A stretch of DNA of 64,000 bases from Rhizobiales bacterium dw_265 (GTDB lineage Bacteria; Pseudomonadota; Alphaproteobacteria; Micropepsales; Micropepsaceae): positions 434,001-498,000 of the forward strand of contig JAAVUU010000001.1 of the NCBI GenBank assembly GCA_018449595.1. The letters are read 5' to 3'. This document shows, piece after piece, positions 2,999-33,649 of this stretch. The position numbers and the translations under genes were made by a program. The notes under the pieces are model-generated. The model worked only from the letters and a program-made list of their open reading frames with translations. It had not been told where the DNA came from and made no database searches. The number at the start of each line of letters is the position of its first letter. Within the stretch, counting starts at the first letter, position 1.

Positions 2999-3642
2999 GC
3001 GAACTGACCCATCTTGTACTGTGCTGCGGTCTTGGCCCGCACTTCTTCCTCGGTCACGCCCGGCGCCAGTTCTATCAGCACCATGCCGCCCCTGGCGCGG
3101 TCGATGTCGAACACCGCCAGGTCGGTGATGACCATGTCGACGCAGCGGCTTCCCGTCAGCGGCAAGGTGCAGACCGGCAATATCTTGGGACTGCCCGACT
3201 TGTTGGTGTGTTCCATCACCGCGATAACGCGCTTGACGCCCGCCACCAGGTCCATCGCGCCGCCCATGCCCTTGACCATCTTGCCGGGGATCATCCAGTT
3301 GGCGATGTCGCCATTTTCCGACACTTCCATCGCGCCCAGAACCGCCATGTCTATATGGCCGCCCCGGATCATGGCGAAGCTGTCAGCGGAGGAAAAGAAG
3401 CTCGATGTCGGCAGCGCCGTGACGGTCTGCTTGCCGGCATTGATCAGGTCGGCATCCTCATCGCCCTCGAAGGGAAAGGGCCCGATCCCCAGCATGCCGT
3501 TCTCGCTTTGCAGCGTGACGTGCAGGTCGTCGGGAATGAAGTTGGCCACCAGGGTCGGAATGCCGATACCCAGATTGACATAGAAGCCCGGCTTCAATTC
3601 CCACGCGGCGCGCGCTGCCATCTGTTCGCGTGACCAGCCCAT
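2995..3642 (-). CDS. 3-oxoacid CoA-transferase subunit B
   Basis: The 215-residue beta subunit of a family I CoA-transferase starts with the usual [17 protein letters not shown] segment. It carries the catalytic glutamate, Glu47, in [10 protein letters not shown], which forms the enzyme-CoA thioester. It works with the adjacent A subunit to move CoA from succinyl-CoA to a 3-oxoacid. The start overlaps the A-subunit stop by ATGA and its own stop overlaps the thiolase start. It could be PcaJ-like or ScoB-like; succinyl-CoA is the usual donor for both, so the acceptor acid is not settled by sequence. Confidence 0.9.
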
Positions 3643-9299: not shown

Positions 9300-10232
9300 C
9301 TATTTCAGTTCGGCGGCGCGGTCGCTGCGCTCGTTGAACTCGACATTGGACAGGCTGAGATAGGGAATGCCGCGGCAGCCGCTGGCGTCCTTGGCCGGAT
9401 CGCCCATCGCTGTTTTCACCTCCACCAGCGACTTGCCGGAATCAACCAGCGCATCAACCTTGTCCTTGATGCCCTGATATTCGGACACCCGCTTGCGCAG
9501 ACTGTCCTTGGTATCGAGATCCCTGGCATGGCCGCCGACATAGGAATCGACGGCCAAACCCAGCAGGCCCTGCGCGTTCCTGAACCAGCCTTCAAAGGTG
9601 CCGTTCTTTTCGGGATGGACCAGGACCGTGCTGGTGATGATGTCGCCCGTAAAGGCGATCTTGTAGGCGGGAAGCTCCACAATCAGGTCGCCATTGGTGT
9701 GGGCGGGTCCGAAATGGTGAATGACAAAATGCTCGCCGTCCAGCGTGGTGGAAACCTTGTCGTTGTAGATGATGACATTCGGCAGGCGGTTGGCGGGCGG
9801 AATGCACTTGCCGCCGCCCACTTCCACGGCGGCAAATTGATAAACCGCCATCTGCTCCATCTTGTTGTTCTCGTGCGCGATGATCTTGAGCCCGTCGGGA
9901 AAGCCTGCCAGACCATTGACATGATCACCGTCGCTGTGGGTGAGAATGACATGGGTGATGGGCTTTGGCGTTAGCTTGGCGACTTCGGCCACCAGTTGTG
10001 CACCGGCCTGCGCCGTCGTCTTGGCGTCAATCACCACCACACCCTTGTCGCCGATGATGATGCCGGAATTTCCGCCGCCGCCTTCGACCCAATAGAGCTT
10101 GCCGTCCTTGATTGCATGCACGGTCAAGCCCTGCCCCTGCTGCGGGCGGGCGGCCTGTTCCTGCGCCGTGGCGGTCATGGCAAGCACCAAGGCCGTAAGG
10201 GAGAAGACGGCAAATCCCGTGAGCGGTTTCAT
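9300..10232 (-). CDS. Exported metallo-beta-lactamase-fold hydrolase, variant metal motif
   Basis: The 310-residue product has a Sec signal (FAVFSLTALVLAMTATA) and an MBL fold with the first metal motif as H99-S-D-G-D103-H104, then GPAHTNGD, FTGDI and GGHARD. In the canonical HxHxDH motif the second His is replaced by Asp101, so one zinc site is altered or the chemistry differs. The start at 10232 has AAGGACCAGGAC upstream; an ATG 18 bp earlier is less likely. It is the last gene of the 14505-9300 run and begins 22 bp after the binding-protein stop. It could hydrolyse a lactone, ester or diketone product of the periplasmic oxidation; this is inference. Confidence 0.82.
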   Translation of the reverse strand: MKPLTGFAVFSLTALVLAMTATAQEQAARPQQGQGLTVHAIKDGKLYWVEGGGGNSGIIIGDKGVVVIDAKTTAQAGAQLVAEVAKLTPKPITHVILTHSDGDHVNGLAGFPDGLKIIAHENNKMEQMAVYQFAAVEVGGGKCIPPANRLPNVIIYNDKVSTTLDGEHFVIHHFGPAHTNGDLIVELPAYKIAFTGDIITSTVLVHPEKNGTFEGWFRNAQGLLGLAVDSYVGGHARDLDTKDSLRKRVSEYQGIKDKVDALVDSGKSLVEVKTAMGDPAKDASGCRGIPYLSLSNVEFNERSDRAAELK

Positions 10233-26940: not shown

Positions 26941-27843
26941 CTAGCGGGTGGTCGCAGGATCAGATTCGTCATCGCGCTGGCTGCCGGCGAGCGCAGCCGT
27001 CGCGCTGGCGATAAAAGCGCCGATAACGAGCGAAAGGGCGCTCACAAGAGCAAAGATAGCGCCAGCTTTCCTCGCCGCATCGGCAGCCTGCCTAGCCTTG
27101 ATCTTCGCCTTATCGATACGAGCGACGACGGTATCGATGCGTGCATTGGCATCAGCTTCCGATAAGCCAGTGTTTGCGGCGATCAGTCGAGCCAGATAGG
27201 CCTTATCGTCAGGAACAAACGATCCCGCCGCTGCACTCTGTGCCAGAATGCGCGTAACTTCGCCGGCCGCCCTCGTCCGGCCATCCGGGCCACTGGCTGG
27301 ATCGCCCGGCCGCAAGAGACTGTCAACGAAATATGAAATACCGCCGGTCTTATCCGACGCGTCGTCGGCGAAATGAGCGGCCCCAACGGTCGCTCCCGAG
27401 GCAGCGCCGGACGCAATCGTAGATGCGGCTTGAACGCCGCCGCCGACAGCGGCGGTCAGGCCAGAGCCCAGTACGCCGACGACCAGGATGGTCGCCAAGG
27501 CCCACGCCATGAAACCGTGTGCGGTATCACGGAAAAAGATCTCATCCGAACGGACACCGACCCATTTCGTACGAAGTCGGCCCGCAAAATAGCCGCCGGC
27601 TCCGGACGACAGCCATTGGACGACAATCAGCCCGATGGCCGTCGACACCGCAAACGTGCTCAGACCAGCGCCGTGGCCGGGCCATGGGGACAGCACGGTC
27701 AGACCCAGGCCCGAACCCACCAGCGTCAGGATAACGGTGATCGTCGATGCGGCAAGGGCGCCCGCGATGATAGCGCCCCAGCTGACCGCGGATTGCGATG
27801 ATTCAGTTGGGATCGCCTGGCCAACAGGAATGGACTCCACCAT
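26941..27843 (-). CDS. Conserved hypothetical membrane protein
   Basis: The 300-residue protein has a conserved-looking start (AVSWGAIIAGALAASTITVI), several glycine-rich membrane helices, a GGYFAGRLRTKWVGVRSDEI loop, a helical periplasmic or cytoplasmic stretch around residues 190-260 and a last helix FALVSALSLVIGAFIASATA. It resembles a family found in many alphaproteobacteria without known function. It follows a 25-residue peptide gene (9-bp gap) and both lie downstream of an EcfG-type promoter, so it is likely part of the general stress response. Confidence 0.7.
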   Translation of the reverse strand: MVESIPVGQAIPTESSQSAVSWGAIIAGALAASTITVILTLVGSGLGLTVLSPWPGHGAGLSTFAVSTAIGLIVVQWLSSGAGGYFAGRLRTKWVGVRSDEIFFRDTAHGFMAWALATILVVGVLGSGLTAAVGGGVQAASTIASGAASGATVGAAHFADDASDKTGGISYFVDSLLRPGDPASGPDGRTRAAGEVTRILAQSAAAGSFVPDDKAYLARLIAANTGLSEADANARIDTVVARIDKAKIKARQAADAARKAGAIFALVSALSLVIGAFIASATAALAGSQRDDESDPATTR

Positions 27844-27852
27844 GACCGCCTC

Positions 27853-27930
27853 CTACCGTAAGAACAGCATGATGAGGATAATAACGGGGATTGGCACACC
27901 CAGAAGCAAGAGCAAGATTCCACGACCCAT
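27853..27930 (-). CDS. 25-residue hydrophobic peptide
   Basis: The frame encodes MGRGILLLLLGVPIPVIILI followed by MLFLR, a single membrane helix with a central PIP kink. Similar tiny MGRG...GIPIP proteins recur in alphaproteobacterial genomes (from memory, not searched). An AAAGGAATGGCAAT ribosome-binding site precedes the ATG. Its start is 40 bp downstream of a perfect GGAAC-N16-CGTT promoter, which is the best evidence that it is expressed. Confidence 0.6.
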   Translation of the reverse strand: MGRGILLLLLGVPIPVIILIMLFLR

Positions 27931-27970: not shown

Positions 27971-27995
27971 AACGTGGCAGAAATATGTTGGTTCC
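27971..27995 (-). promoter_or_regulatory. EcfG-type (general stress sigma) promoter
   Basis: On the minus strand the sequence is GGAAC (27995-27991), 16 bp, CGTT (27974-27971), the exact alphaproteobacterial EcfG consensus. It faces the 25-residue peptide gene and the 26941-27843 membrane protein. Confidence 0.7.
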
Positions 27996-28525
27996 CGTGT
28001 CTAACGGCACTCGTCAGCGACACCAAGGTACGCTGCTTCCGTTTTGATGCTATGCATGAATACATCTGCACACGCTCGCCAAAGAGCCCGACTGTTTCAC
28101 CGCAATCCACTCCAGCAAGTGCTGGCATAGGATATCTAGGCTGCAGACCGCGTTCTCGAAAGACATGAATGGATCATTGGGGATGATGCAGTTGCATCAA
28201 GCCAAGGCCATCTGGCGCCGTCGATTATGCGATAGAGGGCTACCGTCACACGCGGCATGTGAAACAATCAGACGGCAGCGTAGGGAAACTCTTATACGTG
28301 CTTAAGACACCCCCTGGCGTGCCGGTGCGTTCAGCACATCCAAAAATGAATCCGGGATGCGGAGGCAGATCGGTCACGCCAGCCTTCAAAGCATCCGCGA
28401 GAGTCCATGTCTTCCGTCCCGAGACCAATCTCGGCTATGGACGGTTTCAATCACCGCCGCCCGGTTCCGGTGCAAGATACAAATTGAATAATCATCGCCT
28501 AATCGTTCGGCAAACGCGGCTGTGA
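27996..28525. other. Spacer with one copy of the TGATNNAACTG motif
   Basis: No credible gene is seen. TGATGCA (28184-28190) and TGCATCA (28193-28199) form a compact dyad containing, on the minus strand, TGATGCAACTG. That is the same 11-mer found upstream of the histidine kinase gene. Sequence from 28200 to 28525 has only short frames. Confidence 0.5.
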
Positions 28526-29443
28526 TTATCGAAGCTGCTCAGTCAAGACCGAAAACTCGGTTAACATCGCCGAACCGAAGGATGTGGTGATTGCGGTGTC
28601 GGCGGCATCCCGTCCACGGGCGATCAGGATACGGCCTATTCTGGGCTGATTATGGCGCGCATCCAGAGTATGCCAAGTGCCACCCATATAGACCTCGAAC
28701 CAGGCACTGAAATCCATAGGCGCTGGATCAGGCGGCACGCCGATATCGCCGAGATACCCCGTGCAGTAGCGGGCGGGAATGTTCATGCAGCGGCAAAAGG
28801 CGATGGCGAGATGTGCATAATCGCGGCAGACGCCAATTCCCTCAGCATGCGCTTCCGAGGCGGTCCTGTCGTTACGCGCATGAGCATAGCTGAAATGGAT
28901 GCGGTTATGAACATACTGAAGAATGGCATCAAGCCGTGGCCATCCTTCGGCGTAGGCGCCGAAGAGTCTCCAAGCCTCGTCGGTGAGTTTCTGGGTATCG
29001 CAATAGCGGCTGCCGAGCAGATAGACCAGCGTGTCCTCCGGAAGTTCGCCGACCGGATGCTGGTTTGCGTACATGGGCAATACTTCTGGCAGTCCGCTAT
29101 CCACGATGACAAAGCGGTTCCAGAGGGAAAGGCGGCCCGGAGGAGCGATTAGCCGGGTACAGATATTGCCAAAGCCATCCAGATATCTGGTGAAGGGAAT
29201 CTGCGGATAGAGCGTGAAATTCTCGGACTGGACGAAGTCGGATTGCCGTTCAGGCCGGACATGGACCATCAACAGCATAGGCATATAATCGACGCAGTCG
29301 AAGGCGAGGTTGAATCCGCCCTGGATCAACATCTGCCGGGTGAACCTGCAAGGCTCCGAACGCCGCCCCACTTCCGTATCCATCCCGTGTGCATCGACCC
29401 GCACACCCTCCCACGGCAGGCGATTTCCGAAATCAGCCGACAT
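28526..29443 (-). CDS. Transglutaminase-like cysteine protease family protein
   Basis: The 305-residue protein has a beta-rich N-terminal domain and a transglutaminase core with the catalytic Cys in EGIGVCRDYAHLAIAFCR, the His in GTWHTLDARHN and an Asp in the same strand. It resembles the bacterial proteins of the COG1305 group. The start at 29443 overlaps the kinase stop by 11 bp and has a strong GGGAGAGCAGGA upstream. An internal ATG at 29332 (MLIQGGFNLAFD) matches where many relatives begin. Role unknown; possibly peptide or cell-envelope processing. Confidence 0.75.
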   Translation of the reverse strand: MSADFGNRLPWEGVRVDAHGMDTEVGRRSEPCRFTRQMLIQGGFNLAFDCVDYMPMLLMVHVRPERQSDFVQSENFTLYPQIPFTRYLDGFGNICTRLIAPPGRLSLWNRFVIVDSGLPEVLPMYANQHPVGELPEDTLVYLLGSRYCDTQKLTDEAWRLFGAYAEGWPRLDAILQYVHNRIHFSYAHARNDRTASEAHAEGIGVCRDYAHLAIAFCRCMNIPARYCTGYLGDIGVPPDPAPMDFSAWFEVYMGGTWHTLDARHNQPRIGRILIARGRDAADTAITTSFGSAMLTEFSVLTEQLR

Positions 29444-30584
29444 TCCTGCTCTCCCGTGGGATTCGAACCTCCAAAGCAGTACCGGTGCCGGGCCCCATGG
29501 TCATGGTGGCGCCGAGCTGGTCGACGACGCCGCGGACCAGGCGCATTCCCAGGCCGGTGCCGCCGGCATTGCCGAAGGCCATGCCAACACCGGCATCGCG
29601 GATACGAAGGCATATGTCGCCATCCGTCGTGAAAGCCTCCACATGCACGCCGCCCTGTTGGCGCGGCGGATAAGCATGCTTGAAACTGTTCGCCACCAGT
29701 TCGCTGACGATCACGCCCATCTGCATCGCCTTAGCGGACGGCAGATATAGATCGCCGTCTTTCACCGAGACCTCGACTGCCGCAATGTTGTCCGGCTTGT
29801 TCTGCGCCAAGGAGGCGCACAGGCCCTTGAGAAATACTCCCACATTGACCATGTCGGTGCCCGAGGCGCGATAAAGCTGTTCATGCACCGCGGCGATAGC
29901 CATGACGCGCTGGCGCGCCGCCACCAGTGCCTTCCCGGCCTCGCCATCGGTCACGCGCCGGCCCTGCAGGCGCAACATGGAGGCAACCACCTGCAGCGAA
30001 TTCTTCACCCGGTGATCGATCTCCTGCATCAGCATCGCATTGCGTTCCAGCAGCGCGTCCTTCTCGGCCACCAGCCGCTCCGCAGTCTGTCGCGCGGTTC
30101 GCTCCGCCAGCAAGGTCCGGCGTAGTTCCAGTTCCGCGACGGCATGCCGGGCCAGGGCTCCCAGCACCGTCTTCTGTCCGTCGGTGAAGCTTCTCTTTTC
30201 GGTATCGAGTACGCATAAGGTGCCGATACGAAAGCCATCGGGGGTCTCAATGGGCGCGCCAGCATAGGATCTTGGAAAGGGCTCTTTCAGGAAATCGGCC
30301 AATCCTTCGAAACGGGAATCGGCTGCAATGTCGTTCACGACAAACACGCCCGCTTGCCCGATTGTATGGCTGCAAATGGCCGCGTCCGCCGGCATGTTCA
30401 GATTGTCGATTCCCACGGCCGCCTTGCTCCATTGGTTCTGTCCGTCGATGAAATTGATCGCCGCGATGGGCGTCTTGCACAGGAGCGCCGCGACCGCCGC
30501 AATGTCCCTGAACGAAGCGGTATCGTCGGTATCCAGATCGTCATAGCGATGAAGCGCGGCGAGCCGTGTGTCGGGCTGGTCCAT
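29433..30584 (-). CDS. GAF-domain sensor histidine kinase (HisKA_2 type)
   Basis: This 383-residue soluble kinase has an N-terminal GAF domain (about residues 20-155; IAAVAALLCKTPIAAINFID, GAPIETPDGFRIGTLCVLD). A coiled linker and a HisKA_2 dimerisation domain follow, with the phospho-acceptor His near residue 195 in EIDHRVKNSLQVVASMLRLQ. The HATPase region contains ELVANSFKHAYP and GTGLGMRLV. This type of kinase often feeds stress or light signalling in alphaproteobacteria. The start at 30584 has GAGGAGGATCAGCGC upstream. No response regulator with a receiver domain is adjacent. Confidence 0.85.
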   Translation of the reverse strand: MDQPDTRLAALHRYDDLDTDDTASFRDIAAVAALLCKTPIAAINFIDGQNQWSKAAVGIDNLNMPADAAICSHTIGQAGVFVVNDIAADSRFEGLADFLKEPFPRSYAGAPIETPDGFRIGTLCVLDTEKRSFTDGQKTVLGALARHAVAELELRRTLLAERTARQTAERLVAEKDALLERNAMLMQEIDHRVKNSLQVVASMLRLQGRRVTDGEAGKALVAARQRVMAIAAVHEQLYRASGTDMVNVGVFLKGLCASLAQNKPDNIAAVEVSVKDGDLYLPSAKAMQMGVIVSELVANSFKHAYPPRQQGGVHVEAFTTDGDICLRIRDAGVGMAFGNAGGTGLGMRLVRGVVDQLGATMTMGPGTGTALEVRIPRESRNVG

Positions 30585-30670
30585 GCGCTGATCCTCCTCG
30601 AAATGCGGAAATCTCCGGGGCGGAGGTTTCGCGAGATGCATTATGTGAGCGGATTTAGGCCGGCCGCACC

Positions 30671-30695
30671 TGATGCAAAAGAGCCAGTTGCATCA
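30671..30695 (-). promoter_or_regulatory. TGATGCA dyad with TGATNNAACTG motif upstream of the kinase
   Basis: TGATGCA (30671-30677) and TGCATCA (30689-30695) form an inverted repeat with an 11-bp spacer, about 87 bp upstream of the kinase start. On the minus strand the right half reads TGATGCAACTG, the recurring motif of this region. The following GGCTCTTTTG also resembles the csbD copy. Confidence 0.5.
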
Positions 30696-30716
30696 GTACG
30701 TATTGATACAAGTGTA

Positions 30717-32252
30717 TCAGCGGGTGGGGCGACGGGGCGGCGCGCCCTTCTTGGCGGGGCCACCGGTGAAGCCGCGTTCGCGCGCCCAAACAATGGCGGC
30801 CGCCCGACTGTGCACCTGAATCTTATTGTAGATGCGGGCCACGTGGTTGCGCACGGTATTGCGCGTCAAACCGAGCTTTTTGACGATTTCCGCATCGCCC
30901 AATCCCTGACACATGAGACCCAGGACATCGATTTCGCGGTCCGTGAGGTCGGACAGGCCGGCGGTGGCGGTTTTGGGCCGTTCGGGATGGCGCATGATGG
31001 CCAGCTTCTCGATCACCGTGCGGCTGAACCAGGATGTGTCCTGCATCACCGCTTCGATGGCGGTGATCAATTCGCCCTCCGAGCGTTTGCGGTCGGTGAT
31101 GTCCTGGATGACGGTGAGGACGCATTCCTGGCCCTGGATGGTGACGGTCTCGGCCGACAGCAGGCAGTCCAGAACTTCTTCCCGCTTGGTGCGCAACTGA
31201 AGTTCGAAATTGCGCAAACTGCCGCGCTGTTCGATCTGCTGTTCGAATTGGCGGCGCGTAGCGGGATTGATCCAGATGGCCAGTTCGCTGCCCAGATGGC
31301 CAACCGTCTCTTCCTCGGTATAGCCGAGCACCGCCATGAACGCTTCGTTGACGTCCAGAAGCCGCATGCTGTCGCGGGTGGACAGAAACGTCGGCACCGG
31401 CGTCAGGCGGAACGAACGCGCAAACCGCTCTTCGCTCTGGCGCAGCGCGTCTTCGGCTTTTTTGCGCGGCTCCATGTCCATGAAAGTGAACAGCATGCAG
31501 GCTTCCTCGCCCATCTCGATAGGCTGGCCGGCGACGACGACGAACTTGGAGCCGCCGCCCGGAAGCCGCAACGTCGCCTCGGTTTGCGGAATGGTACGAC
31601 CTTCGCGCAAGGCGACAATCGCGGTTTCGCGCGTCGCGGCATTCTCCAGCACATCCACTTCATAGGTGGTATGGGCGATGACATCGTCGCGGCTATAGCC
31701 GGTCATCTCCAGGAAGCCTTGATTGACCTTCACATAGCGCAAATCGGAGAGCCTGCAGATAATCGCCGGCGCCGGATTGGCGTTGAAGGTGCGCTCAAAA
31801 CGCTCCTCCGCCGTAAACCGCTCGGTCACGTCGGTGATAACCAATACGAATGACTCCGGCTTTTCCTTGGAATCCGTCAGCGCAAGGCCGCGCAACTGAT
31901 GCATGCAGTGCCAGCTGTCCTCCGGTGCACCGCCAGCCTTACGGACTTCAACGACGACGTCCTGGAATGTTTCCCCGGCAAGCAGCCGATCGATGGGATA
32001 TTGCGCGTCGCTGAGAGCGTGATTGTTGCGATATTTGAGGACAAAGCGTTCACGATAGTCCTGGGCCGAAGCCCCCAAATCGGCGAGTTCAGCCACGTCG
32101 TGCTGGACAAGAGCACGTTCGTTCGCCCACACGATGCCTTCGATGGGATCGATGAGGATAACGCCCTCCCCCAAGCCCGCGATGATCTCCTGCAACTGGC
32201 GGCGGTCGACCTGTTGTCGCAGAACGGCTTCGTCCGGAACCTCGTTCGTCAT
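30717..32252 (-). CDS. PAS-domain LuxR-type transcriptional regulator
   Basis: The 511-residue protein has three PAS-like units (about residues 15-145, 150-270 and 285-400). Each ends in the usual VLVITDVTERF, LFTFMDMEPRKKAED or LTVIQDITDRKRSE strand-helix joint. A C-terminal LuxR/FixJ-type helix-turn-helix (LTDREIDVLGLMCQGLGDAE, NTVRNHVARIYNKIQVHSRA) fills residues 440-500. It has no receiver domain, so it probably senses a signal directly through the PAS domains. It may bind the TGATNNAACTG sites around it; that is inference from proximity. Transcribed toward the kinase, separated by about 130 bp. Confidence 0.85.
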   Translation of the reverse strand: MTNEVPDEAVLRQQVDRRQLQEIIAGLGEGVILIDPIEGIVWANERALVQHDVAELADLGASAQDYRERFVLKYRNNHALSDAQYPIDRLLAGETFQDVVVEVRKAGGAPEDSWHCMHQLRGLALTDSKEKPESFVLVITDVTERFTAEERFERTFNANPAPAIICRLSDLRYVKVNQGFLEMTGYSRDDVIAHTTYEVDVLENAATRETAIVALREGRTIPQTEATLRLPGGGSKFVVVAGQPIEMGEEACMLFTFMDMEPRKKAEDALRQSEERFARSFRLTPVPTFLSTRDSMRLLDVNEAFMAVLGYTEEETVGHLGSELAIWINPATRRQFEQQIEQRGSLRNFELQLRTKREEVLDCLLSAETVTIQGQECVLTVIQDITDRKRSEGELITAIEAVMQDTSWFSRTVIEKLAIMRHPERPKTATAGLSDLTDREIDVLGLMCQGLGDAEIVKKLGLTRNTVRNHVARIYNKIQVHSRAAAIVWARERGFTGGPAKKGAPPRRPTR

Positions 32253-32414
32253 GCTGGCTCATGTTCTGGCGGAATGCTGGCCGCTGCCGGGCGCGTTTAG
32301 GGCAACCAAGCTGCATGAAATCCTGGCCGTAAGCAAACGCGGCCGGACCGTCCTTTGCCTTCAGGAAAGCCGCGTGCCGGAAAGCGCGCTCCCGCTTCCC
32401 GGCACCGACTGGAG

Positions 32415-32597
32415 CTAGCGCTTAAACGCGTCGCGTGCCGCGTCCTTGGCTCCGCCCACGGCGTTCTGGACCTTTCCCGCGGCCTTCTCGGCGCTGCCTT
32501 CGGCTTCGGTCTTGGCATCGCCCGTGAGCTTGCCGACGCCTTCCTTGATGCTGCCCTTGACCTGCTTGGCGGCGCCGTCGATGCGATCCTTATCCAT
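32415..32597 (-). CDS. CsbD family stress protein
   Basis: The 60-residue product has the CsbD pattern (DRIDGAAKQVKGSIKEGVGK, LTGDAKTEAEGSAEKAAGKV), small, hydrophilic and Ala/Lys/Glu-rich. CsbD-like proteins are induced by general stress in many bacteria but have no known molecular activity. The start has AACAGGAGAACATC upstream. A copy of the TGATNNAACTG motif lies about 90 bp upstream in the same orientation. No EcfG-type box was found here. Confidence 0.9.
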   Translation of the reverse strand: MDKDRIDGAAKQVKGSIKEGVGKLTGDAKTEAEGSAEKAAGKVQNAVGGAKDAARDAFKR

Positions 32598-32686
32598 GAT
32601 GTTCTCCTGTTCAAAAAGGAAAGCGCACGGCATGATGCCATGCGCCCCCATCCGACATAGGAGGCGTTCGATCGCGTCAAAAGACC

Positions 32687-32740
32687 CAGTTCGATCAAGC
32701 GCCTTGGTATTCCTGCATCAATCCAAAGCTGATCGAACTG
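32687..32740. promoter_or_regulatory. Inverted pair of TGATCGAACTG motifs between csbD and an HTH gene
   Basis: CAGTTCGATCA (32687-32697) and TGATCGAACTG (32730-32740) are exact inverted copies 32 bp apart. One reads toward CsbD on the minus strand and the other toward the small HTH gene on the plus strand, so each divergent gene has one copy facing it. Confidence 0.55.
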
Positions 32741-32979: not shown

Positions 32980-33049
32980 AAAGCCAACCGCCGATATCGA
33001 AACAGTGACCCTAGAGCGTTCGAGGTCAAGGACGCAAAAAGGTGACATG

Positions 33050-33070
33050 TCACGCTGCGTCGCAGCGTGA
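33050..33070. repeat. Perfect 21-bp inverted repeat upstream of the GlsB-like gene
   Basis: TCACGCTGCG (33050-33059) and CGCAGCGTGA (33061-33070) form 10-bp arms around one base. An overlapping smaller dyad GTGAA-N3-TTCAC follows (33067-33079). It lies 100 bp upstream of the GlsB-like start and 71 bp after the HTH stop. There is no T tract, so an operator is as likely as a terminator. Confidence 0.5.
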
Positions 33071-33169: not shown

Positions 33170-33424
33170 ATGGACGTACATGGCATCATTGCATGGCTCA
33201 TCATCGGAGCGATTGCCGGCTGGCTGGCGGGAACCCTGGTCAAGGGTGGCGGTTTCGGCCTACTCGGTGACATCGTGGTGGGAATTGTCGGTGCATTCAT
33301 CGGCGGCTGGTTGGCCGGTGTTCTCGGAATTGGCATTGGCGGCGGACTGATCGCCTCGATCATCACCGCAACGATCGGCGCGGTGGTCCTGATTGTCATC
33401 TTGCGCATGATCAAGCGAGCCTAA
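33170..33424 (+). CDS. GlsB/YeaQ/YmgE family stress membrane protein
   Basis: The 84-residue protein has three glycine-rich membrane helices (IIAWLIIGAIAGWLAGTLVK, GDIVVGIVGAFIGGWLAGVL, SIITATIGAVVLIVILRMI), the layout of the transglycosylase-associated/YeaQ family. The start is preceded by GTGGAGGGATGA. These proteins are stress-induced inner-membrane proteins of unclear function. It sits between CsbD and the catalase, supporting a stress locus. Confidence 0.9.
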   Translation: MDVHGIIAWLIIGAIAGWLAGTLVKGGGFGLLGDIVVGIVGAFIGGWLAGVLGIGIGGGLIASIITATIGAVVLIVILRMIKRA

Positions 33425-33624: not shown

Positions 33625-33649
33625 GGAACTTTCCCGAAGCCGGGACGTT
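33625..33649 (+). promoter_or_regulatory. EcfG-type promoter upstream of the catalase gene
   Basis: GGAAC (33625-33629), 16 bp, CGTT (33646-33649) is an exact EcfG consensus, 89 bp upstream of the catalase start. The surrounding 33425-33738 spacer (314 bp) has no credible gene; the frames there lack recognisable domains. Confidence 0.72.

Follow-up and report, generated by a model that had tools for sequence, protein, structure and literature searches.

The stress cluster and its paired promoter boxes

The window analyzed here is a 64,000-nucleotide (nt) stretch of the Rhizobiales bacterium dw_265 genome, to which all coordinates refer unless a contig or locus is named. It contains a stress cluster with csbD, a PAS-LuxR regulator, a histidine kinase and a membrane protein preceded by a short open reading frame (ORF) of 25 amino acids (aa). 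Our analysis indicates that three promoters of this cluster carry the same composite element, and its arrangement makes it likely that the three composites are operator-promoters used by the PAS-LuxR protein encoded among them. The genes are as follows:

32415..32597, minus strand: csbD, with its start codon set at 32597 from the MDKDRI form
30717..32252, minus strand: PAS-PAS-PAS-LuxR one-component regulator, the candidate binder; it follows csbD on the same strand
29433..30641, minus strand: GAF and HisKA_2/HWE histidine kinase
27853..27930, minus strand: hydrophobic 25-aa ORF downstream of promoter P1; a 76% identical ORF occurs in Xanthobacter (locus L080)
26941..27843, minus strand: predicted membrane protein of 300 aa behind the 25-aa ORF; no Pfam family found

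The regulator contains PAS_9, PAS_8 and PAS_4 domains and a GerE helix-turn-helix (HTH; E=5.6e-15), with no receiver family listed by Pfam. The best match of its HTH among solved structures is the DNA-binding domain of NarL.

An earlier note on this DNA had described four copies of an 11-mer, TGATNNAACTG, in the stress region, and these are present at 28189-28199 (minus), 30685-30695 (minus), 32687-32697 (minus) and 32730-32740 (plus). We found that the first three belong to a larger arrangement of 39-40 bp, which consists of a 16-bp box D1 (a 7-2-7 dyad of two inverted heptamers 2 bp apart, TGATGCA-NN-TGCATCA), a spacer of 7 or 8 bp and a 16-bp box D2. The composite occurs three times in the window, always on the minus strand: before csbD, before the kinase and, as P1, before the pair formed by the 25-aa ORF and the membrane protein. 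D2 runs over a poor -35 hexamer (CTTTYG), and a -10-like CTANNT lies exactly 37 nt after the D2 start in all three promoters. Both boxes are 7-2-7 inverted repeats of varying quality, with TRRTGCA as the strongest heptamer; D1 is a perfect dyad in two of the three.

csbD promoter, TGATGCAGGAATACCA-N7-TGATCGAACTGGGTCTTTTG-N17-CTATGT
32705..32720, minus strand: D1, TGATGCAGGAATACCA, an imperfect 7-2-7 dyad with the 23-nt offset to D2 seen in Mesorhizobium
32682..32697, minus strand: D2, TGATCGAACTGGGTCT, containing the third 11-mer copy
32678-32683, minus strand: -35 position, CTTTTG
32655..32660, minus strand: -10-like CTATGT, 37 nt after the D2 start, an exact match to the D2/-10 pattern
32730..32740, plus strand: fourth 11-mer copy, 9 nt past D1 on its other side

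Kinase promoter, TGATACACTTGTATCA-N8-TGATGCAACTGGCTCTTTTG-N17-CTAAAT
30704..30719, minus strand: D1, TGATACACTTGTATCA, a perfect 7-2-7 dyad, which overlaps the stop codon of PAS-LuxR
30680..30695, minus strand: D2, TGATGCAACTGGCTCT, containing the second 11-mer copy, after a spacer of 8
30653..30658, minus strand: -10-like CTAAAT, with CTTTTG at 30676-30681

P1, TGATGCAACTGCATCA-N7-TGATCCATTCATGTCTTTCG-N17-CTAGAT
28184..28199, minus strand: D1, TGATGCAACTGCATCA, a perfect 7-2-7 dyad containing the first 11-mer copy
28161..28176, minus strand: D2, TGATCCATTCATGTCT, after a spacer of 7
28134..28139, minus strand: -10-like CTAGAT, with CTTTCG at 28157-28162

No -10-like match was found for the fourth 11-mer copy with the D2/-10 pattern.

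The 11-mer and the composite in the genome

Three more copies of the 11-mer, which the earlier note did not list, lie on the minus strand at 3067, 42506 and 61462 and bring the window total to seven; 100 dinucleotide shuffles average 0.20 copies and never reach this number. In the whole genome (4.2 Mb) there are 53 copies, against three in a backward-read control, and 23 of the first 30 genomic matches overlap a called ORF of at least 90 aa; this last figure is approximate, as the ORF caller is a crude one that placed ORFs over three of the promoter copies too. The excess is not restricted to stress genes, and the 11-mer alone is no stress-gene signature. On the genome count and the coding check it was rejected as a unit; it corresponds to the left arm of D1 in the 28199 copy and to the left portion of D2 in the copies at 30695 and 32697.

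The view that the stress region holds regulatory-looking sites stands, with the composite, and not the 11-mer, as the real unit. The two reported dyads (TGATGCA-GT-TGCATCA at 28184-28199 and TGATGCA-N11-TGCATCA at 30671-30695) and the "GG-TCTTTTG" resemblance of the 30695 and 32697 copies are real, the suggested -35 role agrees with the overlap of the site with the -35 region, and the neighboring PAS-LuxR protein is borne out as a likely candidate for the binder. The perfect dyad TGATACA-AG-TGTATCA at 30704-30719 had been overlooked, as had the constant distance to the -10-like hexamer and the third composite, in which TGATCCA......TCTTTCG (28176) takes the place of TGATNNAACTG.

The genome distribution, which had been proposed as a check, is roughly random for the 11-mer but clearly non-random for the composite. 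The combined pattern D2+CTTTYG+N17+CTANNT occurs in exact form at four places in the 4.2-Mb genome, namely the three in the window (a number reached in none of 100 shuffles) and one on contig C20. The latter sits in a decayed partial duplicate of the stress locus (G000:C20:20000-38000, L176). It retains a second long catalase gene, a remainder of csbD (ATGGATTGA) and, following an intact kinase promoter, the start of a truncated kinase; ORF calling gave no PAS-LuxR gene in this duplicate. As part of a decayed duplicate, the C20 match was rejected as an independent target. The palindrome alone, TGATNNANNTNNATCA, was set aside as insufficiently specific, with 76 genome sites at no more than one mismatch; one perfect copy, at C1:863244, is apparently inside a gene, which we take to be ruvC from its sequence.

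Conservation across orthologous loci

When the PAS-LuxR protein and its 43% relative from genome G047 were aligned and used as the query, 80 named loci (51-72% identity) were obtained in Alpha-, Beta- and Gammaproteobacteria. The HTH consensus NTVRNHVA is common to the Rhizobiales, Burkholderia, Xanthomonadales and Pseudomonas groups. In most loci csbD lies beside the regulator, on either side, and 66 loci have some csbD match; the two genes are neighbors in Mesorhizobium, Xanthobacter, Burkholderia, Xanthomonas and Achromobacter, while in Pseudomonas the regulator has no csbD nearby.

A matrix built from only the three window promoters, with spacers of 6-10 allowed (five spacers) and a threshold of p<=0.02, was applied to 29 csbD upstream regions, near-duplicates and most Methylobacterium being left out. 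It detected D1-spacer-D2 in 19 of them, 18 with a 7-nt spacer. The match in a Mesorhizobium csbD promoter, TGATGCAACTGCATCA-N7-TGATCCAGGAATGTCTTTTGA, is nearly the P1 of the window, and Xanthobacter also has the kinase promoter, again with an 8-nt spacer (L080:9536). In Burkholderia, Xanthomonas and Pseudomonas the boxes take forms like GCGAATGCACYA-N7-TRGTGCATYCGC, in which the same heptamer is repeated in inverted orientation. Over the 80 loci, the matrix scan gave 33 matches (none in the reversed control) and the core GCAYYA-N6-8-TRRTGC gave 47 (three in the reversed control); by either criterion, 41 of the 80 loci have a site close to the PAS-LuxR gene, compared to one of 80 in the reversed control.

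The consensus of 38 distinct sites is TGRTGCRAATGCAYYA for D1, with the pattern TGRTGCR-AA-TGCAYYA, and TRRTGCATYCGCWTCT for D2, which is close to the reverse complement of the consensus D1; the L088 row of the site table is misplaced and is to be disregarded. A TANNNT peak occurs at offset 38 in nine of these sites.

Three further observations were made in these loci. A conserved Burkholderia sequence, TGCTGCACGGGTATTG-N8-CAATCCATTCACCTCTTTCGC, scores in the matrix scan without the core heptamers (L084, L091, L094, L097-L100, L102 and L105 at ~10,030-10,140; L090 at 3571). Burkholderia matches ~400 bp upstream of the PAS-LuxR gene (TGATGCAGTTTCATCA) begin a small ORF and were set aside as coding. 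In Mesorhizobium, a second composite lies upstream of a small ORF (L076:1087, L077:6682, L078:6690), which presumably resembles DUF982.

Linkage to the regulator gene

Presence of the composite tracks the regulator and not csbD. For this comparison ten of the 80 loci were chosen; L225-L227 and L233-L235 were dropped, having no tblastn start, and L231 and L249 represent one site, L247 and L255 one region. The composite precedes csbD linked to the PAS-LuxR gene in 9 of 11 records (8 of 10 distinct sites), in contrast to 1 of 14 unlinked csbD genes of the same ten genomes and none of 26 csbD genes in relatives without the regulator.

The general stress promoters recognized by EcfG (PhyR-NepR) have the consensus GGAAC-N16-17-CGTT, and such promoters appear to control csbD in the relatives: an EcfG-type GGAAC-N16-18-GTT lies upstream of 24 of the 26 csbD genes without the regulator. 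It was found upstream of none of the ten linked csbD genes, that of the window included, of 4 of 13 unlinked ones and of one of the three unlinked copies in the own genome; the duplicates L249 and L255 and the second Burkholderia csbD (L232) are left out of these counts.

In 36 ortholog genomes, corresponding to 36 of the 80 loci, a strict core of the composite has 26 sites, 22 of which lie in the PAS-LuxR locus. One further site precedes a second PAS-LuxR gene of Paraburkholderia bryophila by 83 bp, two others outside the locus were rejected as lying inside called ORFs (L259 and L262), and L260 is a hairpin that follows a REC-PAS gene. A set of 61 relatives, which includes the own genome, has three sites in all, none of them in the own genome, because its D2 boxes are degenerate. 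The analysis shows the anatomy of the composite, how rarely it occurs in the genome, and its conservation and linkage to the gene of the regulator.

Proposed mechanism and alternatives

We infer binding by the PAS-LuxR protein, its dimers, activation rather than repression, and the signal. The PAS domains would sense a signal, and the protein would then probably bind as two adjacent dimers on D1 and D2, contact RNA polymerase and activate weak sigma-70-type promoters. The activated set would include csbD together with the regulator's own gene behind it, the kinase, and the pair of the 25-aa ORF and the membrane protein. With a transcription start ~7 nt after the -10-like hexamer, D2 would be centered near -42 and D1 near -65, where an activator in contact with RNA polymerase would sit.

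On balance, we lean toward a broader interpretation, in which the cluster is a transferable stress module present in three proteobacterial classes. Its PAS-LuxR sensor-regulator would travel with its targets and their paired operators, csbD and the kinase would have been moved from the EcfG general stress response into a private circuit, and almost all genome sites would lie within the module.

Several findings weigh against activation by the PAS-LuxR protein through the composite. D2 is only partly symmetrical and is a poor palindrome in the window. The matrix test fails in 10 of the 29 csbD regions, 39 of the 80 loci have no match by the strict criteria, and the misses comprise 17 of 18 Methylobacterium/Methylorubrum loci, both sphingomonads and four of five Alcaligenaceae, with weaker forms visible in some. 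Some matrix-scan matches (the Burkholderia series with CAATCCATTCACC) are unlike the core. The backward control of the strict-core count in the 36 genomes gave eight matches, so that single sites outside the locus mean little. Finally, conservation was sampled only beside PAS-LuxR genes, and therefore another local regulator is possible.

It is unlikely that the same protein acts as a repressor, with D2 over the -35 position blocking RNA polymerase until a signal frees the protein. Such a role would suit the overlap of D2 with the -35 position in all three promoters and the presence of the regulator gene within its own predicted regulon. However, the -35 hexamers are poor and a consensus scan detects none of the three promoters, as is usual for activator-dependent ones, and D1 near -65 would be of no obvious use to a blocker. 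Moreover, NarL and Streptomyces PAS-LuxR sites at the same place activate (PMC7419079, PMC9774167).

We consider it improbable that some other DNA-binding protein occupies the boxes. The PAS-LuxR protein was the query by which all 80 loci were gathered, so its linkage to the boxes could be an artifact of the collection; yet 22 of the 26 strict-core sites across the 36 genomes lie in the PAS-LuxR locus, one site precedes a second PAS-LuxR gene, and the 26 csbD genes without the regulator have no composite. The small Mor-like HTH protein of the window has no relative in the 80 ortholog loci.

An RNA function of the inverted repeat, whether as a hairpin or as a terminator following the PAS-LuxR gene, is hardly credible. 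In Burkholderia, Xanthomonas and Pseudomonas the repeat does come shortly after the stop codon of PAS-LuxR, and a D1:D2 stem folds in several lineages (L079, L080, L084, L104), but this stem is absent or weak at the csbD promoter and P1 of the window and in L076, none of the sites has a T-tail, and in the window, in Mesorhizobium and at the Xanthomonas 7857 sites the repeat lies upstream of promoters or genes and not behind PAS-LuxR. Chance clustering of a common coding word, CTGATCGAACTG, in the stress region would accord with the 53 genome copies of the 11-mer and the ORF overlap of 23 of the 30 checked, but it holds solely for isolated copies and is negligible for the composite, for which it is already refuted by the four exact genome matches and which is conserved in other classes.

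Comparison with known systems

Activation by a regulator bound to two boxes, as we propose for the PAS-LuxR protein, has parallels. At BvgA and DosR promoters, adjacent response-regulator dimers are spaced about two turns apart and reach -35; these sites differ from ours, and BvgA and DosR belong to two-component systems. NarL of Escherichia coli acts from 7-2-7 sites at or adjoining -35, as in the yeaR-yoaG and ogt promoters, with tandem sites at ogt (PMC7419079). The composite resembles these operators in its inverted heptamers 2 bp apart, the site abutting -35 and the tandem arrangement of ogt; it differs in the heptamer and in the distance between box centers, 23-24 bp here versus 33 bp given there for ogt (PMC7419079). 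Unlike NarL, the regulator has PAS domains, has no receiver domain and would serve a local regulon. The Streptomyces PAS-LuxR regulators of the PimM family are likewise one-component proteins with a PAS domain and a LuxR HTH, and their operator is a 16-bp palindrome, CTVGGGAWWTCCCBAG, in the -35 region of the target promoters (PMC9774167). The operator proposed here is unrelated, being based on TRRTGCA; it has two boxes per promoter, and the regulator carries several PAS domains and is associated with stress genes, not with the antibiotic genes of that account (PMC9774167).

The geometry is already known, whereas the operator sequence, its paired form and the target set are apparently undescribed, as no description of them was found in the open-licence literature searched. 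A PAS-LuxR family that is widespread and seems not to have been described gains a concrete predicted operator and a target list. csbD, a standard general-stress gene, appears with two alternative promoter types, EcfG where the regulator is absent and the paired operator where it is linked, and this makes the signal of the PAS protein directly testable by a csbD reporter.

Other features of the cluster

The stress region has a lower G+C content than the right-hand side of the window, and the 36 other genomes of the same genus have only partial, weak matches; both would fit an acquisition of the cluster by transfer. For the kinase, the second ATG, near 30584, would suit the predicted transcription start better. 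The 25-aa ORF and the 300-aa membrane protein recur as a pair in Xanthobacter L080 (76% and 60%). An EcfG-type GGAAC-N16-CGTT lies upstream of the 25-aa ORF (27971-27995, minus), which may have two promoters, P1 and EcfG, and another upstream of the catalase gene (33625-33649, plus). Between the csbD promoter and its start codon, the leader contains a hairpin resembling a terminator, with 14 pairs and a T-rich tail (32619-32649, minus), a possible attenuator. Upstream of the Transgly_assoc gene at 33170, a dyad, GTGACATGTCAC, occupies 33042-33053 and has more inverted repeats after it.

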